Below, piece after piece: positions 18,550 through 48,893 of a stretch of 64,000 nt of DNA. Origin of the DNA: Spirosoma foliorum (GTDB taxonomy: Bacteria; Bacteroidota; Bacteroidia; Cytophagales; Spirosomataceae); contig NZ_CP059732.1 of the NCBI RefSeq assembly GCF_014117325.1, forward strand, positions 7,257,001 through 7,321,000, in the 5' to 3' direction. A program made the position numbers and the translations under genes. Each line of letters opens with the position of its first letter. The first letter of the stretch is position 1. Under the pieces are notes generated by a model that did not search any database, was not told the origin of the DNA, and saw nothing but the letters and a program-made list of their open reading frames with translations.

Positions 18550-18587
18550 TCGCGTTCGGGTAATCGAACGGCAGTCAGTTGCTGGAT

Positions 18588-24666: not shown

Positions 24667-24726
24667 GTCTGTAAAAAAACTCTGCGTTCTTTGCGCTTAT
24701 CATTGCGCCCTTTGCGTTTTAAAAAG
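24667..24726. repeat. CTCTGCGTTCTTTGCG-type intergenic sequence
   Basis: This 60-base gap holds two direct copies of a TTTGCG-ending word, a sequence style often repeated between Bacteroidota genes. It is not a clear palindrome here. It supplies spurious upstream codons to the GMC oxidoreductase frame. Confidence 0.45.
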
Positions 24727-26587: not shown

Positions 26588-28867
26588 CTAGCTGTAACAC
26601 CGAACTTCCATCAGCGATGCCGGCGCTAACCCGTCTTTTTTCTTCAAATGGATTGTTAAGCTACTCGTTTCGATCGGTTGCTCGAATCGGATGGTATTGC
26701 TGCTCTGGTGATTATGCGCCTGATGATAGATACGTTCCTGCTGGTCGTTACAGACAACGTACTCTTGCACGCAGAACGGGCCGACGGTTTCTGGATGAAT
26801 CATAATGACCGTTTCCAGTGGGTGGTCAAAATCAGTGTCGAACCGTAATTCCACGCGGCTAATTTTTTGTCGGGTAGGCCAGTTTATAGTTAAGGTTGGG
26901 TTCGCGTCCCGAACATCGGCTACCCAGGCATTCGGCTGATTGGTTGGCCGTTGAACTCCATTTCGAACGTTTGCCGGGCTAAACAACCGAATACCGGGTT
27001 GAATTCTTAGGGCAATATTATGTCCAGCAGGCCGACGTTCGGGGCACCAGAACTCGAACGTGTCGACGCCAATGTCTTCTGTCGGCTCCTGTTTCCCATA
27101 ATTCGAAACCGCCGGATTGATTTTATTAAAGACCGACAAAATGCCCGTAATGCGCAACTGGCTGTATTGCAGCTGGATGTGTTCATTTTTCATGAACATG
27201 ACAAATACGTACTGAGCCTCCGAAAGCTGACTAGTAAAATCCAGATGGACCTCTTGTTTGCCTTTGCGAATCGGGATGCTCACCGTTTCCAGCGTTACAT
27301 CAGGCGTATGGTTAAACGGCTTGCTGCTGCGTCGCAATTCGACTATTAGCGTTGTATCCTGATCGGCGGTTACGAAGGCAGTTATCTGTGGGACAGGACC
27401 AACCGGTAAAGGCAACATCTGGGCGGCTGAAGAGGTCAGTGGGAGCAAAGGGCCATCGGGTGGCAACTCACTAAGTACAAATTCGCTGGACGTTGACAAT
27501 TTTGCCTGTTGGGCAAGGTCATTTTCGTCCTTAAGCTCAATACCCGGAATGTGCTGGCCCGCTTTCAGTAATTCCTGTTGTAACACATGCATGTGTATAG
27601 GCTCCGTGAGGTCTCGTGGAAGCAGGTGATTATTCGTCGCAACGGCAGCGGCCATGCCAACAGCCTGCGCAACGTGTGCACCCGTAGCCATCACCCGAGA
27701 CGAACCGAAAGCTACGTGTGAAGCACTGATGATACGTCCGGCCAGGAAAAGGTTCGATACGTTATGGCTATACAGGCACCGATACGGAATCTGATAAATA
27801 CCCTTGCTGTGCCACTGATTACAACCCGGTTTCTCCGAAAAAATACCATCGGCGGGATGCAAATCAATCGACCAACCGCCAAAAGCCACGGCATCAGGAT
27901 GCGTTCGTTGCTCAACAACGTCCTGTTGAGTCAGCATGTAATCCCCCTCAAATCGGCGACTTTCCCGCTTGCCGGGAATCTGCCCAACCCATTCGAGCGT
28001 CATGGTTTCGGATTCAGGAAACTGGCCGGAATTCTTGATGTAATTCCAGACGCCATACACGACTTTCCAGAGTTCCCACTTGATGGTTTCAGTATCATGG
28101 ACCGTGTCTAAGCGGCCCCCATACTCAATCCACCAGAGTTGACAGCCATATTCCTGGGCGTTAAAGCGTTTATAGCGCGGTATTTGGGTAATATCATCCA
28201 GCGCATAAGCTGGCGGAACAAACCGAACCGGGCGGCCAGTGTCTTTGGTGTAGAAGTAGAGGGAATGACCAAGCAGTTCACCATACTCTTCGGTGGGAGC
28301 AAATTTTTCTCCAAACTCCTCCTGCCGTTCGGCTCCCATTCGAAAGGCAGCCCCCGCCTGAAAGCCAACAATGCCATCACCCGAGGCATCGCAGAAGAGG
28401 GGCGCTACCAGATCATAGGCTGTGCTGTTTTGGCTGCAAAAGGCCTTGATACCGCTAATTGTCTCGGGGTTCGATTTCTCGACTTCATAGACTACGGTGT
28501 TTAACAGTAGCGTGATGTTCGGCTCCAGGACCACCTTTTCCAACAAGATCGTATCGAAAATCAATGGATTTCCTTCAGGATTGCGGTACAGGTTTTCGAG
28601 CAGTAATTCGTCGATCACCCCGCCTTCGCGTGCCCAGCGGTTGTTGTTGCCCATGTGTGAGGTAGCCCCTAATACCCACAGCCGAACCTCGGACGATGAG
28701 TTGCCCCCTAACACGGGTCGATCCTGTACCAGCACTACCCGGATGCCCGCCCGGGCAGCCGTAATGGCGCAGCAAACGCCCGACAGGCCTCCGCCAACAA
28801 CAATCAGGTCGGCATCATGGCGAATGGTTTTCAGCGTTCGTTTATCGGCTGCTTGTTCGCGTATCAT
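26588..28867 (-). CDS. FAD-dependent oxidoreductase with C-terminal beta-sandwich
   Basis: The 759-residue protein has a dinucleotide-binding fold near the N-terminus (Val-Val-Gly-Gly-Gly-Leu-Ser-Gly, Gly25-Gly30) and the FAD_oxidored features Gly-Lys-Arg-Glu-Ser-Arg-Arg and Ile-Pro-Tyr-Arg-Cys-Leu-Tyr-Ser. The last 120 residues look like a discoidin-type sugar-binding domain. No signal peptide is seen, so it may be cytosolic. It overlaps the GH2 gene upstream by 26 bases, which implies coupled translation. It is a paralogue of the exported oxidoreductase at 36533. The substrate is unknown; an oxidised sugar or glycan fragment is plausible. Confidence 0.85.
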   Translation of the reverse strand: MIREQAADKRTLKTIRHDADLIVVGGGLSGVCCAITAARAGIRVVLVQDRPVLGGNSSSEVRLWVLGATSHMGNNNRWAREGGVIDELLLENLYRNPEGNPLIFDTILLEKVVLEPNITLLLNTVVYEVEKSNPETISGIKAFCSQNSTAYDLVAPLFCDASGDGIVGFQAGAAFRMGAERQEEFGEKFAPTEEYGELLGHSLYFYTKDTGRPVRFVPPAYALDDITQIPRYKRFNAQEYGCQLWWIEYGGRLDTVHDTETIKWELWKVVYGVWNYIKNSGQFPESETMTLEWVGQIPGKRESRRFEGDYMLTQQDVVEQRTHPDAVAFGGWSIDLHPADGIFSEKPGCNQWHSKGIYQIPYRCLYSHNVSNLFLAGRIISASHVAFGSSRVMATGAHVAQAVGMAAAVATNNHLLPRDLTEPIHMHVLQQELLKAGQHIPGIELKDENDLAQQAKLSTSSEFVLSELPPDGPLLPLTSSAAQMLPLPVGPVPQITAFVTADQDTTLIVELRRSSKPFNHTPDVTLETVSIPIRKGKQEVHLDFTSQLSEAQYVFVMFMKNEHIQLQYSQLRITGILSVFNKINPAVSNYGKQEPTEDIGVDTFEFWCPERRPAGHNIALRIQPGIRLFSPANVRNGVQRPTNQPNAWVADVRDANPTLTINWPTRQKISRVELRFDTDFDHPLETVIMIHPETVGPFCVQEYVVCNDQQERIYHQAHNHQSSNTIRFEQPIETSSLTIHLKKKDGLAPASLMEVRCYS

Positions 28868-30905
28868 TCGTTAAATCAATCGTTTGGATGAGAATAGAAA
28901 AACCGGTCGGCTTCATAATTTCCACAGATAATGTTTTGTCGAAACCACGTACCGGAATGCTTAGATCGGCCTGTTGGCCAGGTTGAAGGTCAGGGATAGG
29001 AATGGTTCGGGTGTCAGTTTTTAGGGAGTAATTTTTAAGGGCATAAGCTGGGAAATCCTTTCGGGCTGTGATGCGCAGTTTTAAGGTATGCACGCCTTCG
29101 CTACCGGTTTCCCAACTGATTTTCTCAATGGTGACGGGAGCCATACCGGCTTGGTGAGCCAGATAGAGGGGACGTTTGGAGCGGTCCCAGCGGACCAATC
29201 CCCACGGGCGAGTGCCATCGGCATTGGTGCCATGATGGCGACTCAGATAATCGTTAAACGACCACCAGGAAGCCCCAATCACATAAGGCAATTGCCGGAC
29301 GTCGGCGAGAAACTTTTCGATATGGGTAACCTGACCAGCCTCGCCATCTTTACCATCAGCGCGCGTGCCGTATTCACTAATAAAAATTGGTTTGTCAGGA
29401 TAGAGAGAATGGATGTGTTTCAATACGTTTGTGTGATTACCATAGGTGTTGGTCGAAATGAAATCACAATATTGACTGGCCTCATCTTCAGGCTTTTTGG
29501 GTAATGTATTTAAGCGCATCGACGCGAAGGTGTACAGCCGTGTTGGGTCGAGTTCACGAGCATAGGCGATCATGTCTTTCGTCCAGCGTTGCCCGGCGGG
29601 TTGTTCGGAGAGGTATTCATTGCCTACGCTATAGGCAATGATGCAGGGGTGATTCCAGTCGCGCTCGGCCATTTCGCGAAACTGCTGCCGGAATTTCGTG
29701 CGGATCGTATCATTGTCCATCTGCCTCGGCGTCAGCTGCCAGTTTCCAGCTTCGCTGATAATCAGCATCCCGTTGCGGTCGGCCCAGTCGTAGATGGTTT
29801 CAGAAGGCGTGTAGTGGGTTAGTCGGTGAAGCTCCATGCCCGCTTCTTTCATCAGGCGCATATCTTTTTCAACCAGCCAGTCGGGTTCCAGCGAACCCAG
29901 GCCGGGATGATCGACAACACGATTACCCCCTGCTACTTTAATCGGCTGCCCATTCAGCAGTAATTGGGCATTCCGAACTTCCACTTTGCGAATGCCGAAA
30001 TGGGTTTGGACGGTGTCGGTAGCCGTACTAACCTGGACCTCGTATAAGGTAGGCTGGTCGAGGCTCCACAGTTTTACGTCGGCTGCTTTCAGAGAGGTTT
30101 CTGCCTCCAAAACGGCTGTTTGGTTCGCGGCTACATTACCGGACGTTTGTTTCCAGACAAGCGTAATGGGTTTGCCATTTTGCTCCACTCGAAACGCCAG
30201 TTTTGGTGTAATGGATTGCCCACTCGCATTACGAATCCGGGTTTTGATTTTTAACATAGCCGTGCCTTTTGCAAGGTCCGGTACCGCGTCAATTTTTACG
30301 TTCTCTGCATAAACTTCAGGCTCGACGGTTATGTAAATAGGTCTAATCAAGCCACCGTAGTTTATCCAGCCTGGAAAGGGGTCATTAGGTTCATTGTTGT
30401 CTTTACCACCGGGTACCGTGCCCACTCCCCAGGTATTATTGTTTACTGAAATAGCAATCGTGTTATCTGAACCATCGGTTTGTTTCGTCTTTACATAGCT
30501 GGTTATGTCGAACTGAAAAGGGGTGTAGCCACCTTCGTGCGTACCCACTTTCTGGTTGTTGATCCAGATGGTTGTCTCGTAATATGAAGCGTCGAGATGG
30601 AGGATTACCCGTTTGCCCGAAGTTGGTTTCCAGGGGAAAGTCCGGCGGTACCAGACTGTTCCGGTATAAAACTGATAACGGGGATCAACCGAGAAACAGT
30701 GAGGAACCGTTACTTTATCCCAGCGGCCTAGTGGTGCATCTTCCCGATACCAATTCGCCTTTTCGCCAACTGCCTGAGGGTCCATCGCAAACGACCATTG
30801 CCCATGGAGTGGAATGGCTTTCGGGTCGCGAATGGTGTACTGGGCGAAGGTGGGAAACGTCAGTCCTACCAGTAATAATAGTATGTTGAATTTTGTATGT
30901 TGCAT
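28842..30905 (-). CDS. Exported glycoside hydrolase family 2 enzyme
   Basis: The 687-residue GH2 enzyme has a signal peptide (about 1-21, ending Phe-Ala-Gln). A sugar-binding jelly-roll (about 30-200) and an immunoglobulin-like domain (about 200-310) follow, and then a TIM barrel. Acid/base Glu430 is in Ser-Val-Gly-Asn-Glu-Tyr and nucleophile Glu511 is in Ile-Ser-Glu-Tyr-Gly-Thr. The family hydrolyses beta-galactosides, beta-glucuronides and beta-mannosides. The barrel layout is closest to glucuronidase/galactosidase types, but specificity cannot be fixed by eye. It sits between the symporter gene (3-base gap) and the FAD oxidoreductase gene. Confidence 0.92.
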   Translation of the reverse strand: MQHTKFNILLLLVGLTFPTFAQYTIRDPKAIPLHGQWSFAMDPQAVGEKANWYREDAPLGRWDKVTVPHCFSVDPRYQFYTGTVWYRRTFPWKPTSGKRVILHLDASYYETTIWINNQKVGTHEGGYTPFQFDITSYVKTKQTDGSDNTIAISVNNNTWGVGTVPGGKDNNEPNDPFPGWINYGGLIRPIYITVEPEVYAENVKIDAVPDLAKGTAMLKIKTRIRNASGQSITPKLAFRVEQNGKPITLVWKQTSGNVAANQTAVLEAETSLKAADVKLWSLDQPTLYEVQVSTATDTVQTHFGIRKVEVRNAQLLLNGQPIKVAGGNRVVDHPGLGSLEPDWLVEKDMRLMKEAGMELHRLTHYTPSETIYDWADRNGMLIISEAGNWQLTPRQMDNDTIRTKFRQQFREMAERDWNHPCIIAYSVGNEYLSEQPAGQRWTKDMIAYARELDPTRLYTFASMRLNTLPKKPEDEASQYCDFISTNTYGNHTNVLKHIHSLYPDKPIFISEYGTRADGKDGEAGQVTHIEKFLADVRQLPYVIGASWWSFNDYLSRHHGTNADGTRPWGLVRWDRSKRPLYLAHQAGMAPVTIEKISWETGSEGVHTLKLRITARKDFPAYALKNYSLKTDTRTIPIPDLQPGQQADLSIPVRGFDKTLSVEIMKPTGFSILIQTIDLTNDTRTSSR

Positions 30906-30908
30906 TGA

Positions 30909-32636
30909 TTAAGGATTCGTAGTGATGAATTTCTCGCTTTGGTGTGATTCTGCCGTCAACTGAACTCGCTGGGAAGCCCTATAAGGAATTAAGGCTGCCA
31001 GCAGAACCACCCCACCGAGACAGGCCGTAATCCCTCCGCCCACGCTGGCAAATGTGCTTAACCCGCCTAGCATGAATGCAGTGAAGACTAAGGAACCAGC
31101 AATAACCTGTAACCCAAACCGATTCTGTTTTCGTATCGCCAACGCTTCTTCGGGCGACTCGGCTTGTGCATCGTCCCGTTTTTGCTGGCGGGCAATCAGA
31201 TACTGATAGTACTCACTGGCCGTTACGTCTTTCGAGCGTGCCCACAACTCGTAACCTAGCAGAATCAGTAGGGGAAGTCCCACGCCAATGATGGTTTCCG
31301 TTCCTCGGGTTAGCTTAAAATGGAATAGGAGAGGAGTCAGTATCTTAAAGAACAGATTGACGGTTAGGCCGATACCTGTTACCCAAAGCGTTGCCCGGCT
31401 GGTAAGTCGTTTGGAGAATAAAGCCCATAAGGGAGGAGCCAGCAGTGGCCCGCCCGAAATAGAGGAGATACTCAGCACCACTTCGACAATGCCACCGGCT
31501 GCGGGTACCATCAACGCAATTCCGATCATCCCTAATCCAAAGACCCAGGATGAACCCCGAGCCACGCGAATCAGCTTTTTGTCGGAAGCCGCCGGATTGA
31601 TGAGCCCTTTGTAAATATCATTCGTAAAAACAGCAGATACGACATTCAGAGCTGTATTCGCACTGGCCGACGTTGAGAAATACATACCCGTTAGCATCAG
31701 TCCCAGAAGACCCGGCGGCAGTACGAGTTTACAAATCATGAGATAGGCATTTTCGGTATCCAGTCCGGTTAGGGATGGATTGATGGCCTTATAAATCATG
31801 GGGGGCATCATCCAGATAACGGGGCTGATGAGATACAGCCCCGCAAATAGAAACGCCACTTTGCGCGCCGATTTCGGACTATCGACGCTGGTGTAGCGTT
31901 GCACAAACGTCCAGTTTCCACCGATGTAGCAGATATGATAAATGACAAAGGCTGCTATAAAACCGAAGGTATATTCGCCGTTGAGGAGATTGAAAAAATC
32001 GTCGGGTACTGCTTTGACGAATCCATCCAGCCCGCCCACTTTGTCCAGCGAAAGCGGCAACAGAATAAACACGGCTGCTGATAGTACTACGAACTGCAAT
32101 ATATCTGTAACCATGACGGCCCACAAACCCCCAACCGCCGTGTAAGCAATCATGAAAAAGCCTAACCCGATTGTGCAGGGTACGAGCGGTAAATTCAATG
32201 ACGAGCTAACCAGCTTGGCTACCGGATAAAGTACCGAGCCTTTAATGAAGAGCGAGACCAGTGTAAAAATGAAGATGTACGCCTTCTGAACGGTCGTTCC
32301 CAAACGGGCACGGATGAATTCAGCAGCCGTCAAAGCACCCGTTTGTTTCCAGCGGGGAGCCAGATAGAGTCCAGTTACCAGCGCACCGATGCACATGGTC
32401 CACTGAATGGTAATGGCCACCCAGCCGTGTTTATAGGCGATGGAGCCCCAGGCCACGAACGTGCCCGCCGAGAAGAAGCTCATAAACAACGACAAGCCGC
32501 CAATAAACCAAGGCACGGCCTCCCCACCTGCAAAGAAGGACTTTAGGTTCCGGCCCGTTCGGGCGAACAACATCCCGATTCCCAGCACAAAGGCAGAGAA
32601 AATGACGATGACGGCGGTATCAATGGTTGTATTCAT
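30909..32636 (-). CDS. Sodium:solute symporter (SSS family), PUL-encoded
   Basis: The 575-residue protein has about 14 hydrophobic spans. It starts with Phe-Phe-Ala-Gly-Gly-Glu-Ala-Val-Pro-Trp and continues Leu-Phe-Met-Ser-Phe-Phe-Ser-Ala-Gly-Thr, typical SSS features. SSS carriers use the sodium gradient to import sugars, amino acids or acids. Position directly upstream of the GH2 enzyme suggests it brings the released sugar or sugar acid into the cytoplasm. A hydrophilic loop near residue 480-500 is rich in Gln, Asp and Glu. Confidence 0.9.
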   Translation of the reverse strand: MNTTIDTAVIVIFSAFVLGIGMLFARTGRNLKSFFAGGEAVPWFIGGLSLFMSFFSAGTFVAWGSIAYKHGWVAITIQWTMCIGALVTGLYLAPRWKQTGALTAAEFIRARLGTTVQKAYIFIFTLVSLFIKGSVLYPVAKLVSSSLNLPLVPCTIGLGFFMIAYTAVGGLWAVMVTDILQFVVLSAAVFILLPLSLDKVGGLDGFVKAVPDDFFNLLNGEYTFGFIAAFVIYHICYIGGNWTFVQRYTSVDSPKSARKVAFLFAGLYLISPVIWMMPPMIYKAINPSLTGLDTENAYLMICKLVLPPGLLGLMLTGMYFSTSASANTALNVVSAVFTNDIYKGLINPAASDKKLIRVARGSSWVFGLGMIGIALMVPAAGGIVEVVLSISSISGGPLLAPPLWALFSKRLTSRATLWVTGIGLTVNLFFKILTPLLFHFKLTRGTETIIGVGLPLLILLGYELWARSKDVTASEYYQYLIARQQKRDDAQAESPEEALAIRKQNRFGLQVIAGSLVFTAFMLGGLSTFASVGGGITACLGGVVLLAALIPYRASQRVQLTAESHQSEKFITTNP

Positions 32637-32651
32637 AGTGTCTTAGTTCTG

Positions 32652-32729
32652 TTTTCGACAGGATTTACAGGATGAACAGGATTTTATTTGCAGGCGCTAA
32701 TCCTGTTCATCCTGTAATCCTGTCGAAAA
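32652..32729. repeat. Palindromic repeat, family C (ACAGGAT type)
   Basis: Left arm 32652-32683 and right arm 32699-32729 pair over about 31 bases with one extra base. The ACAGGAT/ATCCTGT words recur inside each arm. It lies in the gap between the 862-aa protein gene and the symporter gene of the PUL. Confidence 0.85.
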
Positions 32730-32730
32730 A

Positions 32731-35319: not shown

Positions 35320-35400
35320 GTCAGGTTTTTAAGCTAATGGACAATGGATAATCGGAGCCGCCAGTTATCCATTACTCATTTTACATTATCCATTTACTGG

Positions 35401-36405
35401 CTATTGCTCTTTTTTCAATCCCTCAGTAACGAATGTCTTTGATTCACCATCCTCCCCGGTGTAAACAATGTATACATCCAGGTCTTTTCTGGCGGACAGA
35501 AAGTGCTTGGTTGCTTCCAGCCCCATCACAAAAAATGCCGTGTCATAGCCATCAGCCGTAATCGCATCCGGTGCGAAAACCGTTACGCTTAACACCGAAC
35601 TCTGTTCCATTAGACCCGTTTTGGGATTGATGATGTGGCTAAATGTCTGGCCGTTCGATTCGAAATGGTTCCGGTAGTTTCCGGCGGTTGTCATCGCCCG
35701 ATTTACCAGTTTCATCGTCGTCAGCATTTTTCCAGGTTGAAGTGGATTTTCAATCCCGATTGTCCAGTCTTGCTTTTCGCCTTTCTTCCCTTTGGTGCGA
35801 ATTTCTCCGCCAATTTCTACCATGTATCGGTCAATCCCCTTGCTTTCCAGAAACTCCGACAACACATCGACCGAGTAGCCCTGCGCAATGCCGTTGAAAT
35901 CCAGACGTATATTTTTCTTTAGCTTCCGAATGGACACAGAGTCAAATGAAATTTTCTGAAAACCAACTAATTGTAGTAACGAGTCACTGTTTACCGGCTC
36001 TACTAATCGTATTTTTTTAGGTCCAAATCCGTACGCTTCGACCAGCGGCATGACTGTTGGATCAAAAGCTCCCTTTGTTTCTCGAAATACCTCTTCCGAT
36101 TTTTTTAGAACCGGATAGAAATAAGGCCGTTCAAACCGGTGCCTCTCCGAACGATTAAACCGAGAAATCTCGGAGTCCGGCAAATAAGTCGACAGGCATT
36201 TGTCAATCGTTATCAGGACCGAATCAATTTCCTTTTTGAGATTGCGTTGCCGCTCATCCCGGTATTTTATGTGATACGTTGTCCCCTGCGCTTCTCCATC
36301 CAGATTGATCATTGGCAGGTCTGTGGCCGAGGGTAAATTGCTCGGAGACAATACCGCAAAGAGCGGATAGATTATCAATGCACTATAAACTAAGCCTTCT
36401 ATCAT
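35401..36405 (-). CDS. apbE: FAD:protein FMN transferase
   Basis: The 334-residue protein has an N-terminal hydrophobic segment (export or anchor). Its ApbE features are Gly-Ala-Phe-Asp-Pro-Thr-Val near 112-118, Asp-Phe-Asn-Gly-Ile-Ala-Gln-Gly-Tyr near 169-177, Val-Glu-Ile-Gly-Gly-Glu near 196-201, and the metal-binding Ala-Asp-Gly-Tyr-Asp-Thr-Ala near 284-290. ApbE enzymes move FMN from FAD onto a Thr or Ser in exported proteins, outside the cytoplasm. Within this PUL the likely acceptor is the 369-aa protein two genes upstream. Family B repeat copy 3 precedes it. Confidence 0.92.
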   Translation of the reverse strand: MIEGLVYSALIIYPLFAVLSPSNLPSATDLPMINLDGEAQGTTYHIKYRDERQRNLKKEIDSVLITIDKCLSTYLPDSEISRFNRSERHRFERPYFYPVLKKSEEVFRETKGAFDPTVMPLVEAYGFGPKKIRLVEPVNSDSLLQLVGFQKISFDSVSIRKLKKNIRLDFNGIAQGYSVDVLSEFLESKGIDRYMVEIGGEIRTKGKKGEKQDWTIGIENPLQPGKMLTTMKLVNRAMTTAGNYRNHFESNGQTFSHIINPKTGLMEQSSVLSVTVFAPDAITADGYDTAFFVMGLEATKHFLSARKDLDVYIVYTGEDGESKTFVTEGLKKEQ

Positions 36406-36415
36406 GTCAATTGAC

Positions 36416-36501
36416 GTTTTTCGTCATTCCGACCTTAGGAGGAATCTCAAGCTTGACTATTTGGAGACTTGAGATTCCTCCTAAGGTCGAAATGACAAAA
36501 A
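36416..36501. repeat. Palindromic repeat, family B copy 3
   Basis: Near-perfect 35-base arms carry ACCTTAGGAGGAAT and its complement. It fills most of the gap between the exported FAD oxidoreductase gene and apbE in the PUL. Confidence 0.87.
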
Positions 36502-36532
36502 CTTAGTTTATCGTGTAATCAATAGGTTATAC

Positions 36533-38338
36533 TCAAGGCTTGCTACTCGCAGTTGGTTCATCTTTGATGATCGCCATAAATTCCGGCAGGTGTTCCTGAT
36601 AGACTCCCCGTGGTGTCGTGCTGTATTTTTTCGCCATGTAAGCCGCAAAGCCAACCACTTCCCCCATCATACCGCAGGTACGCATGACGCGCGTACTGCC
36701 AAACGCAACGTGTGTGGTGCTGATGTTACGACCCGCCATAAACAGGTTGGAAATATTCTTTGAATACAGACAGCGGTATGGAATCGTGTACGGTGCCACT
36801 TTGATGTGTTTGGTTCCGGCAAAAAACTCCTGACCCTCAAAGTACTTGCTGTTCTTGGGGTCCGGAAAATGGAGATCAATAGTCCAGGTGGCCGTAACGG
36901 TTCCATCTGGATACTGTTTGCCTTCCTGAATATCCATCTGATTCAGAATATGATCGCCAAGTAATCGCCGGGATTCGCGTTTGCCGCCGATGTAGGCCAC
37001 CCAGGCGAGTTCACGTTTGGCATATTTTTCATGCTTATTCTTTTTCAGATATGACCAGTTGCCATAAATGGCCCGCAGGTTATGATCGCGGATTTTCTCG
37101 GCGTCGGTGATGGTGTTGTAATTCCCAAAACCGGTTTCCCACTGCCAGTCAGAGCGGGCTTCGTCAATGTGATATTCATCCGAAAAAGGCAGCGCCCAGG
37201 GTACTTCGGGAAATGACGAAGCGGTATCACGCTCCAGCGATGCCCATAAATTGGAGGTGCCCAGCGTAAAATCATCCGATTTGTCATTAGCCAACGATTC
37301 ACCCGTTTCGGCTTTACTCTCGCGACCAAACCGGTAGTCGGCACCAATCAGATAGCCTAGTGTTCCGTCGCCGGTACAATCGGCAAAATAGGTGCCTTCG
37401 AAGCGGGTTTCCTTGTTAGTGGCAATATCCCGGCCCACAACAGCGGTCACTTTATCCTTCTCTTTTTCGGCTTTATACACGTGAGTATTCAAAAACAGCT
37501 TAATGTTCCGTTCGGCTTTCACGATGGCAATTTTACGGGCATCGCCGTACTCGTTGCCGTTCGGGTTTCCATTGCCCGGATCGCCGTTGTCCATTTCCCG
37601 AACGATACGTCCGAGTTTAGGATAATGATTCTGGTCGGTTTCTCCGCGAAGGTGCACCCGAACCTCCGAACTATTATTCCCTCCCAACAAGGGGCGATCC
37701 TGAATCAGAGCCACTTTTAAACCCATGCGAGCGGCTGAAAGTGCGGCACAGGTGCCAGCAATACCTCCTCCTACAACGACCAGATCGAACTGACCCGCAT
37801 TGGCCGTTGCACCGGTCAGATTGAGTAATTTATTCCGAAAAGCGGTCAGTTCATCTAGCTTATTAGGCGGAGTGAATTTGGGTGCATTGGTAAACAGAAT
37901 GGCATCACAGCGGCCGTTGAAGCCAGTCAGATCGTGCAGCGCCAGAGTGGTCTGATCATTTTTAATATCGACTTCTCCGCCGTTGTACCATTTCCATTCG
38001 TCCGAACCGCTTTCGCCGAAGACAATCTTTACCGGCTGATTATCAACGACCACCTGAAATTTTCCGGGGCCTTTCGGAAAAGGTGCCCAGTCTTTAGTAC
38101 GTACCCAGAGTTGGTATTTGCCTTTTTTAGGAAAGCTCACGGTCGTTGTCGCATCTTTTACCGGACGTCCCATACCGTGAGCCATCATGTAGGAGGAACC
38201 GATAACAACAAAGGATTGCTGATCGATGACCCAGCCGCCTTTATTCTGAAACGACTCCGTCTCGACGAAAACCTGATCCTGGGCCGCCAGTGGCAGAGCG
38301 AACAGCAGGAAGAGTAGAAGTTGATAAATTGATTTCAT
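36533..38338 (-). CDS. Exported FAD-dependent oxidoreductase with N-terminal binding domain
   Basis: The 601-residue protein has a signal peptide (about 1-20, ending Leu-Ala-Ala-Gln). A beta-sandwich of about 140 residues follows that resembles the golvesin/xanthan-lyase binding domain, and then an FAD_oxidored domain starting Val-Val-Val-Gly-Gly-Gly-Ile-Ala-Gly (about 187-195). Shared with the paralogue at 26588 are Gly-Lys-Arg-Glu-Ser-Arg-Arg and Ile-Pro-Tyr-Arg-Cys-Leu-Tyr-Ser. The linker carries Leu-Thr-Gly-Ala-Thr at 174-178, weakly similar to an ApbE target. It probably oxidises a sugar outside the cytoplasm. The electron acceptor is unknown. Confidence 0.85.
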   Translation of the reverse strand: MKSIYQLLLFLLFALPLAAQDQVFVETESFQNKGGWVIDQQSFVVIGSSYMMAHGMGRPVKDATTTVSFPKKGKYQLWVRTKDWAPFPKGPGKFQVVVDNQPVKIVFGESGSDEWKWYNGGEVDIKNDQTTLALHDLTGFNGRCDAILFTNAPKFTPPNKLDELTAFRNKLLNLTGATANAGQFDLVVVGGGIAGTCAALSAARMGLKVALIQDRPLLGGNNSSEVRVHLRGETDQNHYPKLGRIVREMDNGDPGNGNPNGNEYGDARKIAIVKAERNIKLFLNTHVYKAEKEKDKVTAVVGRDIATNKETRFEGTYFADCTGDGTLGYLIGADYRFGRESKAETGESLANDKSDDFTLGTSNLWASLERDTASSFPEVPWALPFSDEYHIDEARSDWQWETGFGNYNTITDAEKIRDHNLRAIYGNWSYLKKNKHEKYAKRELAWVAYIGGKRESRRLLGDHILNQMDIQEGKQYPDGTVTATWTIDLHFPDPKNSKYFEGQEFFAGTKHIKVAPYTIPYRCLYSKNISNLFMAGRNISTTHVAFGSTRVMRTCGMMGEVVGFAAYMAKKYSTTPRGVYQEHLPEFMAIIKDEPTASSKP

Positions 38339-38443
38339 CTCATTTTTGATTTTTGGAACGCTGATTATTATGATGCTTATGATTAGTTATGATCTAATTT
38401 TATAAATCCCTTGAAATCAGATTTAATCTTAATAATCTGCGTT

Positions 38444-39553
38444 CTATCGTTTGTTTTTAAAGGCGTTCATCTTCGCCAAAACGGCAGGTTTTTTTGGGTG
38501 AAAAGACGTTAGGACTCGGTTGATCTCCGTGGCATATTCCTGATTGGACGTATCCAACTGATTTGCCATCGTTAGCAGAGCTTTTTCGGATAGTTTGGGT
38601 TGGGAGGCCAGCAAATTGATCATCAGCGTAAACTGCTCCCGGTTGGCGTTAACCATTGCCTTCGCCGTTGCTTCGGCCAGTGAAGGCTGAAAGGGGATTT
38701 GTGCCAGCTTTTTGAGAATCGCGATTTGCAAGGGATAACTCGTTGATTGGTAGGTCTCCCAAAGCCAGACTTGCCGCGCATTGCTGGCGAAAAAGGGATT
38801 GCTAATTTTTTGCAAGGCCGCTCGGGCTGTAAAAACGTTTTTCCCCCGAATGATTTGCAGCATATCGGGCGTGAACGATTCGGTTATGCTTCCTGCTTTA
38901 TCGACCACTTTGTCCATTGCCCAGTATTGATAATGGTAATTGCTACTGGTCAGGAAACGATGTAATAGGTCGTCTGTCCGATACGATTCCGTTATCTTCT
39001 GCATTTCATCGGCCACCTTTCCGTGAGCGATGTGCCAAAGCGTGTAACAGGTATACACCGCGCCGTCGATCACCTCATTTTTGACGGTTTTCAATGTAGC
39101 ACCCGCCTTAGCATCTACAGAATCCGCCAAGTTTTCGGTGCCTTTTCCGACCAAATCTTCCATGGCTACATCTTTCAACAACGAGTTCGTATTGTCCAGA
39201 ATATCCCGCAGCTTATCGTAGTCTTCCTGCTTGAATTCCCGGTGATCCATTTTGGTCAGCACTTCGCCCGGCGGTAAATCGTAGCGCGTGTAATTGCCCA
39301 AAAGATCCCAATAGAAATTGATATAGACCGGTTTACACTCACCTGTCAGGCAAACAGGCGTAAACACATTTCGGAAGAAATAAGCTGGCTGATCCCGTTC
39401 ATCGAAAGCCAGCTTGAGCGTATAAGACGTCGTATCGTTCTCGACGATAGTAAACTCCCGTATTTTCTCCGACTTTCTAACAAGACCTCCTGGTCGTTCC
39501 GAGAAGCCGGAAAGAGTAAGGAGGATTAGTAGAAAAGTCGTTGAGCGGATCAT
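38444..39553 (-). CDS. Exported protein with candidate FMN-attachment motif
   Basis: The 369-residue protein has an N-terminal hydrophobic signal (about 1-17). A domain with Val-Cys-Leu-Thr-Gly-Glu-Cys (Cys68 and Cys73) follows, and then Asp-Ala-Lys-Ala-Gly-Ala-Thr-Leu at residues 147-154. This last motif is like the Asp-x-x-Ser/Thr-Gly-Ala-Thr site where ApbE joins FMN to threonine, except that Ala replaces the Ser/Thr. It is followed by Gly-Ala-Val-Tyr-Thr-Cys-Tyr-Thr-Leu-Trp-His. The C-terminal half is helical and HEAT-like. I infer a flavin-carrying electron-transfer protein, but no named family was recognised with certainty. Confidence 0.7.
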   Translation of the reverse strand: MIRSTTFLLILLTLSGFSERPGGLVRKSEKIREFTIVENDTTSYTLKLAFDERDQPAYFFRNVFTPVCLTGECKPVYINFYWDLLGNYTRYDLPPGEVLTKMDHREFKQEDYDKLRDILDNTNSLLKDVAMEDLVGKGTENLADSVDAKAGATLKTVKNEVIDGAVYTCYTLWHIAHGKVADEMQKITESYRTDDLLHRFLTSSNYHYQYWAMDKVVDKAGSITESFTPDMLQIIRGKNVFTARAALQKISNPFFASNARQVWLWETYQSTSYPLQIAILKKLAQIPFQPSLAEATAKAMVNANREQFTLMINLLASQPKLSEKALLTMANQLDTSNQEYATEINRVLTSFHPKKPAVLAKMNAFKNKR

Positions 39554-39602
39554 TTTTGAATGAGGTCTTCCTCTGCTTTTAATCTAGTATCAAGGAGGCT
39601 CA

Positions 39603-39702
39603 TTTTTGTCATCCCGACGTTAGGAGGGATCTCAAGCTTGGCTATTACGCAACTTGACCGGGCCGCCGGAGCGGATCCTTCCTAACGTCGGGATGACAAA
39701 AA
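39603..39702. repeat. Palindromic repeat, family B copy 4
   Basis: Arms of about 29 bases differ at one position and carry CATCCCG/CGGGATG, a changed pair relative to the other copies. The centre is GC-rich. It lies between susD and the 369-aa protein gene. Confidence 0.85.
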
Positions 39703-39709
39703 AGGCCTC

Positions 39710-41185
39710 TTACTTCCAATCTGAGTTTTGCTCCAGCTTCGGATTTGCATTCAGTTCATCCTGCGGAATCGGGAAATACTTGTTCTTCGCCGTTACGTTT
39801 CGGACTGGATAAACGGTGTTGACAGCCTTCGGAATAACCGTCAGGTATTTGCCCGTACGGGTGAGGTCGTACCAGCGGTCGCCTTCGGCGAAAAACTCCC
39901 AGGCTCGTTCCTGAAGAACAGCGTCGATGAAAGCATCTTTGCTAAGACCCGTTTGTAAATCAGCTAGACCGGCCCGTTTGCGAATGGTGTTGACGTAACC
40001 ATAGGCTACCGTTGTAGCACCGTTCAAGCGAGCTTCGGCTTCGGCGGCAATCAGGTACATATCGGCCAGACGGAGAATCGGTATGTTCGGAATCAAACCA
40101 ATCGTTGAAACCGGGTCCTGGTATTTCTTGATCAATACACCGTCGGTTGTAATGGGCGTAATGCTCTTCTGGGGAATAGTTTTGCCATTTTTATCTACGT
40201 AGGTCGTGTCGAGCAACAGTCGGCGCTTGTCCTGCGGGTTGAATGAATTGTAGAACGACTGATAGGCGAACATCGAACCGAAGGTCGTTTTGCCGTATTC
40301 GGGTCCGGCGCTGGCAGGGGGGCCACACAGACCCGTCAACTGGTGCGACCGACCCGGCGAAACCGGGTCAACCTCATAGGCCCACATATTCTCGACGCGA
40401 GCTGCATCTTCCTGGTCGTATTTATACACATTGCGGACATCCGGCATCAGCGAGTATTTGCCCGATGTGATCACCGCCTGCGCTTTTTCTAGTGCTTTGG
40501 CCCAATCTTCGTTATACAAAGCCGCTTTTGCGTACAATGCATTCACCACTTCTTTCGACGGACGGCCTTTATCAACCGCCGGATACGATGGTAAACCAGC
40601 GTTAAACGCCTGATCTAAATCGGCATAAATCTGCTTGTAAACATCGGCTTTAGGGCTTTTGCCAACAATAGCATCCGTTTGTGAATAGCTGGGTGTGGTT
40701 TTGATAACGACATCGCCGAAGTTTTTGGTAAGCATCCAGAGGTAGAATGCCCGCAGGTAATAGGCTTCGCCGATGATCTGCTTTTTGCGGGTTTCGTCCA
40801 TCACTGCTGCCGGAACTTTGGCAATGATCCAGTTGGCTTTCTCGATGCCGTCGTAACCCGATGTCCAGATTTGCTGAGGGGCTTCATTAACCCGTGAATT
40901 ACTCTTTTGCGTCGTGTAGTTTACGTCGTAGGTAAAGAGCGTCAATGTATTCCGGCCTACCACACCACGCGGGTAGGTCTGATCGTCACTAAAGTCAGCG
41001 ATCAGGGTTCCGGCCGGACCGCTGTACATATCCGCGAACGGATCGTAAGCCGCAATGAGCCCTTTCTCCGCATCGGCGGCCGTTTTGTAAAAGGCTTCGG
41101 TGTAAATGGACGAATAAATGGTTTCGTCCAACTGGCAGGAAGCCAGACCAAAGGCAACTAGTATAGGAATGAGTATCTTTTTCAT
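39710..41185 (-). CDS. susD: SusD/RagB-family outer membrane glycan-binding lipoprotein
   Basis: Starting at the ATG at 41185 the product has 491 residues and opens with a lipoprotein signal ending Leu-Ala-Ser-Cys. The frame can be read back to 41266, but those 27 codons come from a palindrome, so they are not part of the gene. SusD features include Glu-Ala-Tyr-Tyr-Leu-Arg-Ala-Phe-Tyr-Leu-Trp and a C-terminal Ala-Trp-Glu-Phe-Phe-Ala-Glu-Gly-Asp-Arg-Trp-Tyr-Asp-Leu. It binds glycan at the cell surface and acts with the SusC porin encoded upstream. The ligand is unknown. Confidence 0.95.
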   Translation of the reverse strand: MKKILIPILVAFGLASCQLDETIYSSIYTEAFYKTAADAEKGLIAAYDPFADMYSGPAGTLIADFSDDQTYPRGVVGRNTLTLFTYDVNYTTQKSNSRVNEAPQQIWTSGYDGIEKANWIIAKVPAAVMDETRKKQIIGEAYYLRAFYLWMLTKNFGDVVIKTTPSYSQTDAIVGKSPKADVYKQIYADLDQAFNAGLPSYPAVDKGRPSKEVVNALYAKAALYNEDWAKALEKAQAVITSGKYSLMPDVRNVYKYDQEDAARVENMWAYEVDPVSPGRSHQLTGLCGPPASAGPEYGKTTFGSMFAYQSFYNSFNPQDKRRLLLDTTYVDKNGKTIPQKSITPITTDGVLIKKYQDPVSTIGLIPNIPILRLADMYLIAAEAEARLNGATTVAYGYVNTIRKRAGLADLQTGLSKDAFIDAVLQERAWEFFAEGDRWYDLTRTGKYLTVIPKAVNTVYPVRNVTAKNKYFPIPQDELNANPKLEQNSDWK

Positions 41186-41191
41186 GAGATC

Positions 41192-41281
41192 AGTCAATGA
41201 TTGAATTGTCGAATGATTGACTGATTGAATTGTTGGAGCACTTAACCCATTCAACAATTCAATCACTCAGTCATTCAATCG
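41192..41281. repeat. Palindromic repeat, family A copy 3
   Basis: An imperfect palindrome of about 90 bases made of TTGAATGA-type words fills the gap between susC and susD. It may set the SusC:SusD expression ratio by ending some transcripts, which is inferred only from position. Confidence 0.8.
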
Positions 41282-41282
41282 T

Positions 41283-44200
41283 TTAGAATGTTACCTGAAG
41301 ACCGCCCAGGAATGATTTAGCTTGTGGATACACCAGATTGTCGATACCAATGGCGGTATTTGAACCGGCGTAGGTATTCACTTCCGGATCGAAACCGCTG
41401 TATTTCGTGATCGTAAACAGGTTGTTGGTACTCACGTACACTCGTATTTGCTGAAGTCCTTTGATGCGGGGTAGTGTGTAGCCCAGCGTCAGGTTCTTGC
41501 ACCGCAGGTACGAACCATCTTCAACTACCTGACTCGTCACGGGCAGACGACCGGCCTGAAAACCACTCACGTATTGATTGCTCGGATTGGTGGCTGACCA
41601 TCGGTTAGCAAGTCCTGCCAACTGATTCCGTTGCCCCAATGGCATTTCAAACGACAGGCGGGCAGCATTGTAAATGTCATTACCCTGTGAACCCGACAGG
41701 AACATGCTCAGATCAAAGCCTTTGAAGGACAGGTTGGTCGAAAATCCATAAATGAATTTCGGATTTGGATTGCCGGTAATCACCTGATCGGCAGCCGAAA
41801 TAGTACCGTCGCCGTTGATGTCTTTCACTTTCAAGCCACCCAAACGACCGTCGTAGCCGGGCAGAATTGACTCACCTGTCTGGTTGATGCCGTCGTAAAC
41901 ATAGGTCTTGAAAACGCCGAGTGGCTGGCCAACTTTCAATATTGAATAAGCTGTAATGAACCGTTCCTGCGTAGTGCCGCCATCCAGATCCAGCACCTTA
42001 TTCCGGTTCATGGTCAGGTTACCAGAAACACTCCATTTCAGTGGGCCTTCCAGTATCCGGGCATTTACGGCGAACTCCAGCCCCTTGTTTTCCAGGGAGG
42101 CAAAGTTGCCGGTAATCGTGCCGTAGCCCGAACTCAATGGCAGGCCTTTCACGTACAGTAAGTCTTTCGTGCTTTTGTGGTACGCATCCACAATGATGCT
42201 GATGCGGTTATTGAGTAAACCAATGTCAAGGCCGATATCCGCCTGAGCCGATTTTTCCCAACGTAAATCGGGGTTGGCAATGCCTGATGGGTTAATGCCA
42301 ATCATGTAGGTGTGATTAATGTTGTAATCACTGCCAGGGTTAGGAGCCGAGACCGTTGCCAGCGATTGATACGGGTTAAGGCCACCGGCATTTCCGGTAA
42401 TACCGTAACTACCCCGCAGTTTCAAATCCGAAAGCCAGGAAATGTTCTTGGCAAATGGTTCCTCGATGATCCGCCAGGCGGCCGAAACGGCCGGAAACAG
42501 ACCATACTTGTGGTTGGCTCCGAATTTGCTCGACCCATCGACCCGAGCGGTCAAGTCCAGGAAGTATTTGTCTTTATATCCATAATTGATCCGGGCCAGG
42601 TACGAATCCAGACGCGTGCGGCTTCGGCTGCTGGTAACCGTACGGGTTAGGGCCAGTTGCAGAGCTTCGTTTTGAGTAGCATCGTTCGGGAAGCCTGTAG
42701 CGTTGATTTGGTTGGAGTTATTGTCTTCCGACTGGGAAGCCACAACAGCCGTCGCTTTAAACGAATGATGCTGGTTGAAGATCGTGCTATACGTCAGGAT
42801 ACTTTCGTGGAGCAACGCCAGCCCGTTGGTATTCACTTTAAACCCAGAACCTGAATTGTCATTCAAATCTGCCTTATTAACAATTGACCGGGGCGAATAC
42901 CCATCGCGCAGGCTGCTTTGCAGGTCCACGTTGAATGATGCCCGGTACGTCAACCCTTTCAGAATACTAAAGTCAGCGTATAAATTGACAAGCGTCCGCT
43001 TTATAGCGTTCCGGTTCAGGACGCTGGCAAAGTTCAGCGGATTGGTAACTTCCCGATATTGACCACCGGCCTGCTCACCAAATGGGAAAAGCGTTCCGTC
43101 GGCACGGTAAGGAACCAGTGTTGGTGGTGCGCCAATGGCCGCGCCGAGGATAGAAGCCGTTACAACGCCTGCATCGCCAATCGTTTCAGAACCTGTCGTA
43201 ACCCCCGAGTTAATCGCGTAACTGCCTAAGAGACTGGTTCCTACTTTCAGTAGTTTACTCACCCGGTGGTCAACATTCAGTCGGTAGGAGTAGCGTTTGA
43301 AGGCCGAGTTGATAATAATACCGTCTTGATTGAAATAGTTAGCCGAAAGGGCCACCTGGGTTTTTTCGTTGCCACCGTTAATCGACAACTGGTGGTTTTG
43401 GATGGGTGCCTGACGGAAAATGAGACTTTGCCAGTTCGTGCCTTCGCCCAACGATGCCGGATCGGGATAGAAATTATTTTTGAACACCTCGTTTTCCAAC
43501 TGGGCAAACTGAGCCGCGTTCAAAACAGGTAAGGTTTTATTGACTTTCTGGACGCCGTAATAGCTATCGAATGTCACACGAGTAGCACCCGTTTTACCCC
43601 GTTTGGTCGTAATCAGCACAACGCCGTTAGCCGCCCGAGAGCCGTAGATGGCTGATGCCGAGGCATCTTTCAGGATTTCCACCGACTCAATATCGTTCGG
43701 ATTGATAGTTGACAATGGACTAACATCATTGATGCCACCGCTATTGGAAATCTGGATACCATCCACAACATACAGCGGTTCAGAACTCCCGTTGATCGAG
43801 TTTGTGCCCCGAATCCGGACACTGATATTACCACCCGGTGCTCCCGTATTCTGGCTTACCTGAACCCCGGCAACCCGCGATTGTAAGCCTTGTGCCACGT
43901 TGGCTACTGGCGTTTGTACCAGGTCAGCGGCTTTCACCGAAGCAATGGAGCCGGTGGTTTCAATCTTACGCTGAGTTCCGTAACCAACCACAACCACTTC
44001 GTTCAGTGACCGGTCGTCGGCTTTTAAGCTGACGTCGATGGTGCTCCGATTGGCAATCTCCACATCCTGCGATACATAGCCAATAAAGGAGAAGGTTAAT
44101 GTAGCCGCATTGGCTGGCACGTTTAGCGTGTATTGACCATCCGCATTGGTGGTAGTTCCTTGCGAGGTTCCTTTCACAAGGACGTTAACACCGGGAAGCC

Positions 44201-44327
44201 CTCCGTTGGTTGTGGCATCGGTAATACGCCCTGTCAGGGTACGAGTTGACTGTGCCTGACTCACCAACGTGATTAGCAGTAGACAAACCAGCCCGATCAT
44301 GCTTCGTAATAGTAGAATAGATTTCAT
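41283..44327 (-). CDS. susC: SusC/RagA-family TonB-dependent outer membrane transporter
   Basis: The 1014-residue protein has a signal peptide (about 1-25). A carboxypeptidase-regulatory-like domain (about 30-105) contains Gly-Leu-Pro-Gly-Val-Asn-Val-Leu-Val-Lys-Gly. A TonB plug follows with Val-Val-Gly-Tyr-Gly-Thr-Gln and Val-Asp-Gly-Ile-Gln-Ile, and then a large beta-barrel. SusC proteins import oligosaccharides through the outer membrane using TonB energy, with SusD as a lid. This is the first gene of the PUL and is divergent from the LacI-type gene, with a shared regulatory region upstream. Confidence 0.96.
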   Translation of the reverse strand: MKSILLLRSMIGLVCLLLITLVSQAQSTRTLTGRITDATTNGGLPGVNVLVKGTSQGTTTNADGQYTLNVPANAATLTFSFIGYVSQDVEIANRSTIDVSLKADDRSLNEVVVVGYGTQRKIETTGSIASVKAADLVQTPVANVAQGLQSRVAGVQVSQNTGAPGGNISVRIRGTNSINGSSEPLYVVDGIQISNSGGINDVSPLSTINPNDIESVEILKDASASAIYGSRAANGVVLITTKRGKTGATRVTFDSYYGVQKVNKTLPVLNAAQFAQLENEVFKNNFYPDPASLGEGTNWQSLIFRQAPIQNHQLSINGGNEKTQVALSANYFNQDGIIINSAFKRYSYRLNVDHRVSKLLKVGTSLLGSYAINSGVTTGSETIGDAGVVTASILGAAIGAPPTLVPYRADGTLFPFGEQAGGQYREVTNPLNFASVLNRNAIKRTLVNLYADFSILKGLTYRASFNVDLQSSLRDGYSPRSIVNKADLNDNSGSGFKVNTNGLALLHESILTYSTIFNQHHSFKATAVVASQSEDNNSNQINATGFPNDATQNEALQLALTRTVTSSRSRTRLDSYLARINYGYKDKYFLDLTARVDGSSKFGANHKYGLFPAVSAAWRIIEEPFAKNISWLSDLKLRGSYGITGNAGGLNPYQSLATVSAPNPGSDYNINHTYMIGINPSGIANPDLRWEKSAQADIGLDIGLLNNRISIIVDAYHKSTKDLLYVKGLPLSSGYGTITGNFASLENKGLEFAVNARILEGPLKWSVSGNLTMNRNKVLDLDGGTTQERFITAYSILKVGQPLGVFKTYVYDGINQTGESILPGYDGRLGGLKVKDINGDGTISAADQVITGNPNPKFIYGFSTNLSFKGFDLSMFLSGSQGNDIYNAARLSFEMPLGQRNQLAGLANRWSATNPSNQYVSGFQAGRLPVTSQVVEDGSYLRCKNLTLGYTLPRIKGLQQIRVYVSTNNLFTITKYSGFDPEVNTYAGSNTAIGIDNLVYPQAKSFLGGLQVTF

Positions 44328-48850: not shown

Positions 48851-48893
48851 TATTTCACTTAAACCCTGGCTACTGCCTGAACTCTTAATTCGC

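Follow-up and report, generated by a model that had tools for sequence, protein, structure and literature searches.

A predicted pair of exported flavoproteins encoded in a SusC/SusD locus of Spirosoma foliorum and its possible role in periplasmic sugar oxidation

What might flavin chemistry do in a glycan locus? The question is raised by positions 26588..44327 of a window of 64,000 nucleotides (the whole stretch of DNA that was analysed) from Spirosoma foliorum, a locus that resembles Sus-like PULs in its SusC/SusD pair, regulator, exported glycosidase and sugar symporter, but differs from them in an added flavin redox cassette. The preliminary description of this DNA proposed that glycan or sugar is oxidised outside the cytoplasm and that the electrons pass through a covalently bound FMN. 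To judge from the sequences compared here, periplasmic sugar oxidation with electrons leaving via covalent FMN is the best explanation and a fairly probable one, with one of the two FAD oxidoreductases removed from the chain.

Layout of the locus

The genes of the locus all lie on the minus strand at the coordinates first given for them, and these coordinates, together with Pfam and NCBIfam searches, bear out the original list of SusC/SusD, two FAD oxidoreductases, ApbE, an exported motif protein and GH2. The SusC/RagA TonB-dependent outer-membrane transporter (41283..44327; TIGR04056, 899 bits) is adjacent to a SusD-type lipoprotein (39710..41266; PF07980, 127 bits) whose ORF begins with GTG; judged by eye, a Met/lipobox near 41185, MKKILIPILVAFGLASCQ, is probably the true start, being likelier than the GTG. 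Adjacent susC and susD homologues, a GH2 and a LacI-family regulator divergent from SusC (44667..45686, plus strand; PF00356/PF13377) are the features by which a PUL is recognised, and all are present. The locus is composed of a PUL core (SusC, SusD, P862, SSF, GH2 and FAD1) and a redox cassette (P369, FAD2 and ApbE) placed between SusD and P862. Scans for promoters (20 matches versus 20.7 in shuffles) and terminators (16 versus 21.2) gave no excess.

Within the core, an SSF sodium:solute symporter (30909..32636; PF00474, 127 bits) would serve inner-membrane import, and an exported glycosidase of family GH2 (28842..30905; PF02836, 101 bits) is beta-glucuronidase/beta-galactosidase-like, scoring 211 bits against the beta-glucuronidase model, under that model's cut-off of 544. 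This GH2 had been taken for the single recognised glycosidase; it stands, but P862 (32731..35319), an exported protein of 862 aa, is a probable second carbohydrate-active enzyme, on the basis of Pfam matches to GH88/GH127 below the cut-off and of a structure model of modest confidence (pLDDT 66) with a sugar-enzyme-like fold that indicates no family. A LacI match accompanies P862 in 42 of the 46 loci that hold it. Searches of PDB sequences with FAD1, FAD2 and P862 returned nucleotide-binding motifs, or one match at E 0.41.

Pairing of P369 with an exported oxidoreductase

FAD2 (36533..38338) is an exported PF12831 FAD-dependent oxidoreductase with a leader-like N-terminus, in which the PF12831 match (249 bits) spans residues 185-584, with some 160 extra residues ahead of it at the N-terminal side. 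The match to PF00890 covers residues 185-220 alone, the N-terminal FAD motif; FAD2 is not a full-length PF00890 enzyme, so the combination of PF00890 with FMN that marks fumarate-reductase-like systems is not what is found here.

The conserved neighbourhood that the preliminary description suggested looking for is present. A PF12831-type oxidoreductase lies within 500 bp of P369, on the same strand, in 70 of 78 loci, a set that was counted from all ORFs (antisense-overlapped frames included), is not independent (many of its members are Dyadobacter, Larkinella or Runella) and includes one repeat (L105 repeats L016); in four further loci of the 78 an FAD oxidoreductase is found at 642-1607 bp. 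The set also contains the eight P369 places, in seven genomes, recovered by a context-blind search of 395 genomes, all eight of which have the pair, split in one case by apbE. Each of 12 additional P369 regions also has the pair (L172 is apparently L073 again), a comparison that omits five places (G533:C230, C144, C184, C164:3199 and G523:C531), and 25 of the 27 non-FAD1 oxidoreductase places in a census of the Spirosomataceae have P369 within 2 kb. The two proteins diverge in parallel (Mantel rho 0.92 over 80 pairs, 0 of 999 permutations being as high, with shared ancestry ignored). P369 occurs with no FAD match in the 20 kb of L070, and in L065 and L071 (contig edge, short contig); FAD2-like enzymes occur without P369 in 3 of 9 full-length-type places in the 395 genomes and also at G533:C6 and G534:C2, which means that FAD2 can turn to a different acceptor or do without one.

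Export appears to be a common property of these partners, although leaders were judged by eye and by a crude hydropathy rule, which 50 of 62 FAD2-type frames pass. The FAD2-type partners shown have leader-like starts, and partners of about 460 aa have Tat-like leaders in 9 of 9 cases (PF12831 by Pfam in 4 of the 9, the rest being named by phmmer similarity); those of about 1,055 aa are PF12831 by Pfam in 1 of 3, with the rest likewise named by phmmer similarity.

Among Spirosomataceae genomes, all 24 that have a non-FAD1 oxidoreductase also have P369, and none of the 8 whose only such enzyme is FAD1 does; these counts ignore shared ancestry and come from census genomes that may overlap those of the first locus set; in L160 a different P369-FAD3 pair occupies the same site. 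At the level of sequence there is good support for the exported pair within a SusC/SusD locus, FAD2 being the predicted redox partner of P369, and the data support P369 with an exported FAD oxidoreductase, often with apbE, as a conserved and separable module found mostly in SusC/SusD loci.

FAD1 (26588..28867; PF12831, 326 bits) is different in both respects. The window protein has no leader, nor has any of 18 orthologues in one comparison or of 13 more in a second (the crude hydropathy rule scored the window FAD1 positive, at 2.07, owing to its FAD-binding strand), and FAD1 persists in the PULs of eight family genomes that lack P369 and FAD2. FAD1 is probably cytoplasmic, because it has no signal peptide and is a member of the cassette-less core. 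A single extracytoplasmic chain containing both FAD oxidoreductases, as first proposed, was rejected on these grounds; what survives of that reading is the conserved exported pair of P369 and FAD2, often with apbE.

FAD2 may instead be a reductase that works outside the cytoplasm on an oxidised sugar (for example a keto or unsaturated one) and is fed by the respiratory chain via FMN-P369, as the flavinylated reductases of fumarate and urocanate are. Sections of Meheust et al. (eLife 2021, PMC8238504) describe systems in which FMN domains are coupled to PF00890 flavoenzymes and supply reductases with electrons, and the PDB sequence matches of FAD2, which concern the Rossmann part alone, include flavocytochrome c fumarate reductases. 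This reading is nevertheless unlikely, as FAD2 is PF12831 across its whole domain with PF00890 confined to the N-terminal FAD motif, the catabolic SusC/SusD setting suits oxidation better, and sections of the same paper also place a flavinylated protein to receive alcohol oxidase electrons.

Oxidation of a sugar, the preferred reading, also agrees with the company that the cassette keeps: GH2, P862, SSF and the LacI gene go with it in the window and in core relatives, and other P369 loci have rhamnosidases (L052, L173) or a GH97 fusion in them or close by. These genes weigh against a still less likely alternative, in which FMN-bearing P369 does work with FAD2 but SusC/SusD take up an organic compound other than a glycan (a plant glycoside, polyol or phenolic), the aglycone or an alcohol being acted upon by the oxidoreductase. 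Consistent with such a substrate are L165 and L170, which have SusC, SusD(-like), PF12831 and P369 with no glycosidase seen adjacent (most neighbours lying outside the Pfam search), and L068 and L169, where the pair has PhoD-like proteins nearby.

The P369 motif and its predicted FMN transferase

P369 (38444..39553), an exported protein of 369 aa, is predicted to be a covalent-FMN electron carrier. It belongs to an unannotated family with homologues also in Kiritimatiellae/Pontiellaceae, has no Pfam or NCBIfam match at E 0.001, and gained few additional relatives among the best 120 matches of a profile search of the protein database. The motif DAKAGAT (residues 147-153; codons at 39095..39115, minus strand, from the P369 coordinates and the motif position) fits the published D-x-x-[ST]-G-A-[ST] at 6 of 7 positions, position 4 being Ala in the window protein and in most of 120 homologues listed, and Ser/Thr in the remaining close homologues and in paralogues. 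As aligned, the Asp and final Thr are retained in 120 of 120 homologues among the matches listed, for which reason the FMN-site-like motif of the first description is borne out as more than chance and is, by sequence, an essentially invariant flavinylation-type site at the family level, with Thr153 the predicted point of FMN attachment. The same two residues are kept in 25 of 25 divergent family members.

P369 was considered, and rejected, as an ordinary PF04205 protein: the window protein is unmatched at E 0.001 and the similarity to PF04205 is local, at the motif alone. An hhalign comparison of the family with 10 PF04205 proteins (32 loci fetched, 19 of which gave a frame, 9 being dropped where the motif pattern was absent) aligned 20 columns at the motif (E 3.8e-5, probability 70.9%); aligned globally, the two gave nothing notable (probability 0.1%). 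Against the PDB, the family profile has a single match at E 1, to a solved FMN domain and located at the motif (E 0.38), and one homologue, L072, touches PF04205 (E 0.023; 15.8 bits versus a cut-off of 22). Nor did the Pfam search match P369 to DUF2271 (PF10029) or DUF3570 (PF12094). In architecture P369 has an N-terminal beta domain and C-terminal HEAT/ARM-like repeats. Its structure model has pLDDT below 50 at residues 139-152, around the motif, and Foldseek listed mostly helical repeats with no match at E 0.001; because the VIA rows run from residue 84 to residue 369, they hardly probe the N-terminal domain.

The ApbE of the locus, an FAD:protein FMN transferase (35401..36405; PF02424, 262 bits; 180 bits against NF007774, under the equivalog cut-off of 498), is predicted to flavinylate P369, which has two further attributes of an ApbE target, export (a leader by inspection and hydropathy, with 59 of 70 P369 frames passing the crude rule) and an ApbE in the genome. 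Lack of conservation of apbE with the other genes had been set beforehand as a refuting outcome, and it did not come about: the distance from P369 to the nearest ApbE is at most 3 kb in 45 of 78 loci, no more than that, with no ApbE match in 33 of the 78 stretches, and an ApbE is found somewhere in 29 of 29 P369 genomes checked versus 54 of 99 genomes of the class, a check that omits 5 of the 33 ApbE-less loci (L048, L064, L065, L069 and L071). Where a stretch holds ApbE, the nearest copy is always within 3 kb of P369. The genome that the window comes from has four ApbE genes and no PF04205 match, and two of the three other ApbE genes have the known targets DUF3570 and DUF2271 close to them, which parts of the paper cited above describe as orphan-apbE targets. 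That P369 is a non-flavinylated accessory or scaffold of FAD2, ApbE being adjacent by chance or serving another protein, would fit the missed Pfam FMN_bind cut-off and the stretches lacking ApbE, and is rendered the least probable reading by the invariant Asp/Thr in the divergent members, the constant proximity of ApbE where present, the genome lacking a PF04205 target and the presence of ApbE in every P369 genome checked.

Proposed electron route and related systems

In the preferred reading, FAD2 would oxidise a sugar or glycoside brought in through SusC/SusD, and pass the electrons to an FMN that ApbE would attach to Thr153 of P369 in the periplasm. The HEAT-like repeats of P369 may dock partner proteins, and P369 would hand the electrons on, at the membrane, to an acceptor linked to quinone or cytochrome. 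The gene for that acceptor would lie elsewhere; the locus in the window has none that can be recognised. Sugar-redox or heme-c genes found close to P369 in L070, L168 and L176 speak for such a route. GH2 and P862 would release or trim the oxidised sugar, which SSF would bring into the cytoplasm for further processing; there FAD1 may act as a core-pathway enzyme outside the electron chain. What the comparisons show is the conservation of the pair, its parallel divergence, its joint presence and absence, the invariant flavinylation Thr and the frequent adjacency of apbE; what we infer is FMN attachment, sugar oxidation by FAD2, and the direction and acceptor of the electrons.

Some FAD sugar dehydrogenases use cytochrome c; these and the 3-keto-glycoside pathways have GMC or Gfo/Idh/MocA enzymes. 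The proposed logic, in which a sugar is oxidised before or around cleavage, is like theirs, but here PF12831 and a predicted covalent-FMN carrier take the place of a GMC or Gfo/Idh enzyme and its cytochrome c or NAD. Flavinylated fumarate and urocanate reductases (PF00890 with FMN_bind) likewise combine an FAD flavoenzyme with covalent FMN (predicted here) outside the cytoplasm, whereas the present locus is catabolic, has another flavoprotein family and would carry its FMN on a separate HEAT-like protein. Flavinylation has been linked, in sections of Meheust et al. (PMC8238504), to respiration, iron assimilation and extracellular electron transfer. As far as those sections describe them, ApbE-dependent extracytosolic systems resemble the locus in having an exported protein with a conserved flavinylation site, an adjacent apbE, service to extracytosolic oxidoreductases and an electron-chain link that may be encoded elsewhere; they differ in that P369 is by Pfam neither PF04205, DUF2271 nor DUF3570, and in its PF12831 partner and SusC/SusD setting. 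The main text of that paper never mentions polysaccharide, carbohydrate, sugar, FAD_oxidored or PF12831. Among part of the open-licence papers matched, at the level of titles and the beginnings of abstracts, no PUL with flavinylation or with an FMN transferase and an oxidoreductase was found.

The chances are about even that P369 defines a new ApbE substrate family and that SusC-SusD-PF12831-P369(-ApbE) forms an 'oxidative' module for uptake in Bacteroidota, both general and exchangeable, in which nutrients are oxidised in the periplasm and electrons reach the respiratory chain via covalent FMN. If so, a glycan locus would gain energy before its substrate crosses the inner membrane, since electrons would enter the respiratory chain via covalent FMN; the P369 family would explain part of the orphan apbE genes, Sus-type loci would gain a redox branch and part of the PF12831 family a role, and the reading of glycosidase-poor PULs would change. 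P369 is in any case a named, testable candidate ApbE substrate for a genome with four ApbE genes and no PF04205 match.

Gene order and a candidate substrate family for flavinylation

The genome holding the window is a single contig of 8.85 Mb. Nine minus-strand genes of the window follow one another in the order SusC, SusD, P369 (the 369-aa protein predicted to carry covalent FMN), FAD2 (a PF12831 oxidoreductase and its predicted partner), ApbE, P862 (an 862-aa probable carbohydrate enzyme), SSF, GH2 and FAD1 (a second PF12831 oxidoreductase). From SusC to GH2 the coordinates give intergenic gaps of 16, 156, 105, 127, 81, 94 and 3 bp, the last junction (GH2/FAD1) is a 26-bp overlap, and a LacI gene is divergent from the run.

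P369 has no match in Pfam or NCBIfam at E 0.001 and, among the matches listed, is nearest to named Spirosoma proteins. Its motif, DAKAGAT (residues 147-153), can be set beside the minimal flavinylation motif D-x-x-[S/T]-G-A-[S/T] published in a review (PMC12052999). Among the best 120 of 316 homologues the Asp and final Thr are kept in all 120, with the motif reading DAKAGAT, as in the window, in 68 and DAKTGAT in 45; paralogues carry DAVSGAT, DAVSSAT or DGVTSAT. C68, C73, D147, A152 and T153 are invariant in a divergent 25-member set extending to Saprospiraceae, Catalimonadaceae, Kiritimatiellae and Pontiellaceae. A single homologue touches Pfam FMN_bind (E 0.023) at the motif, the P369 profile has one PDB match at E 1, to an FMN domain of solved structure that aligns there (E 0.38), and profile comparison with 10 PF04205 proteins, one of which has Ala at position 4 (DAIAGAT), aligns 20 columns at the motif (E 3.8e-5). 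The AlphaFold2 model (pLDDT 85) consists of an N-terminal beta domain, a motif loop of low confidence and helical repeats. Given this conservation, the motif-centred FMN-domain similarity and the model, P369 resembles an ApbE target of a new type. Membership of PF04205 is ruled out by that family's own cut-off, and PF04205 has no match in the window genome or in eight other genomes of its genus (0/8).

ApbE flavinylation and the polysaccharide utilization locus (PUL) are each already known; what appears to be new is a candidate substrate family with a PF12831 partner for the former, and a P369/PF12831 flavin pair added to the latter. Among the publications listed in the literature searches, none is on flavinylation in PULs. 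The words polysaccharide, carbohydrate, sugar and PF12831 are absent from the available part of eLife 2021 (PMC8238504), as are polysaccharide, carbohydrate, sugar and SusC from that of mSystems 2024 (PMC11334425).

Conservation of the oxidoreductase pair and of ApbE

Seventy loci were fetched with P369 as bait (63 of them with a SusC match). Another 8 places, for a total of 78, came from searching 395 genomes of the phylum; the family occurs in 8 of these genomes (9 places, the window counted). The preliminary description had proposed a search for conserved neighbourhoods of the FAD oxidoreductases with apbE and the 369-aa family. When all ORFs are considered, a same-strand PF12831-type oxidoreductase is found within 500 bp of P369 in 70/78 loci. 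The nearest ApbE is no more than 3 kb from P369 in only 45/78, and the other 33 stretches have no ApbE match. The oxidoreductase is 642-1607 bp away in L037, L066, L026 and L112 (with apbE in between in L112) and 3.2 kb away in L067; none was found in the stretches of L065 (P369 at a contig edge), L070 and L071 (a 3.9-kb contig). The pair is present at 8/8 places from the 395-genome search, one of which (L105) repeats L016. Distances within P369 and within its partner correlate (rho 0.92, with shared ancestry still included; 80 pairs from 84 P369 frames; 0/999 permutations as high), and in genomes with two pairs (L023, L045, L058) the types stay matched.

Twelve further P369 regions all have an adjoining FAD oxidoreductase, about 1,055 aa long in three regions and about 460 aa in the other nine (PF12831 Pfam-confirmed for 5 of the 12), with SusC upstream in 11 (L167 being the exception) and apbE in 2. 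L165 and L170 combine SusC and a SusD(-like) gene with P369 and a PF12831-type oxidoreductase, with no adjoining glycosidase recognised in a Pfam comparison that covered a minority of neighbours.

ApbE is present in 22/22 genomes searched whole, drawn from the 33 loci without a local copy, and in 7/7 genomes behind L105-L112; these searches cover 28 of the 33 loci. In the class 54/99 genomes have ApbE (window genome counted). ApbE is thus in excess among P369 genomes; relatedness, and perhaps genome size, inflates the difference. The window genome has 4 ApbE genes. Of the three outside the locus, one lies near DUF3570 and one near DUF2271/PepSY, both among the flavinylation targets or partners published in eLife 2021 (PMC8238504); for the third, none of the neighbours checked is an obvious target.

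Presence and absence of the cassette

With FAD1 as bait, 32 of 61 genomes of the family matched, 27 with a FAD1 orthologue (fragmented in G514 and G515) and 5 with other PF12831 enzymes only. By whole-genome search P369 occurs in 24/24 genomes with a non-FAD1 match (window genome counted) versus 0/8 with FAD1 alone, and lies within 2 kb of 25/27 non-FAD1 oxidoreductase places. The fetched stretches of the 8 FAD1-only genomes have PUL core genes and no match to P369 or ApbE. SusD directly adjoins P862 in five (L145, L146, L147, L150, L164), a GH43-like gene lies between them in L149, an antisense frame crosses the SusD place in L148, and the junction falls outside the fetched stretch L162. In L160 a different pair, P369 with another PF12831-type partner (FAD3), occupies the cassette site.

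With FAD2 as bait, 12/395 genomes matched, giving 9 full-length-type places, 6 with P369 and 3 without (two in G369, one in G172); P369 was not found anywhere in these two whole genomes at E 1e-6, and is likewise absent next to the FAD2-like enzymes of G533:C6 and G534:C2. P369 is therefore not strictly needed by FAD2. Judged from these sequences, P369 is almost always accompanied by an oxidoreductase while the converse does not hold, as would be expected of a replaceable carrier.

Location and proposed direction of electron flow

Leaders were assessed visually and with a crude hydropathy rule; the rule passed 50/62 FAD2-type and 59/70 P369 frames and wrongly scored the window FAD1 as leader-bearing. 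Leader-like starts were recognized in P369, FAD2, GH2 and P862. Tat-like RR leaders occur in 9/9 partners of about 460 aa and in several larger ones. FAD1 begins M-I-R-E-Q without a leader, its window ORF allows no earlier start, and no leader was seen in 18/18 orthologues plus 13/13 of a second set, six of whose frames extend upstream, still without a leader-like stretch.

The most economical reading is that FAD2 oxidises a sugar and passes electrons to FMN on P369. The main rival is the reverse direction, reduction at FAD2, since the best-known FMN-coupled flavoenzymes are reductases, according to eLife 2021 (PMC8238504). Hints on sugar redox and acceptors come from neighbours. Directly 3' of P369 on the same strand, L168:6284-8625 encodes a Gluconate_2-dh3-type subunit followed or accompanied by a GMC oxidoreductase, which places a sugar/alcohol dehydrogenase of known type beside the flavin pair. 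At L070:9776-13479 (Pontiellaceae), with no FAD match across its 20 kb, a P369 homologue is next to a PSCyt1/DUF2231 protein and also to a Tat-type Gfo/Idh/MocA protein. A DUF7133/HEAT/cytochrome c protein neighbouring apbE, directly after FAD-P369-ApbE (L176:4970-8080), is a possible electron acceptor.

In the window a GMC-family oxidoreductase (24691-26442, +) converges on FAD1 from the opposite strand and is a further flavin sugar-oxidase candidate, outside the operon. Downstream of the LacI gene (47681-50270, +) lie genes for an AXE1-like esterase and for a Gfo/Idh/MocA oxidoreductase whose Tat-like leader reads NRRRFIQGT; in L005 and L006 LacI is followed by ORFs of equal lengths. Also near the locus are a sulfatase (55652-57031, -) and an SNF2-type helicase (50371-53919, -), and the window further has a 1687-aa ORF (18579-23642, +) without a Pfam match at E 0.001. 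Elsewhere in the same genome (L103, 1683001-1703000) two PF12831 oxidoreductases lie side by side, one of them bearing a Tat-like leader; the region also encodes a GH2-type enzyme but no P369. The 1461-aa P862 homologue at L033:15164-19549 is apparently the one that forms a fusion with a GH97 glycosidase.
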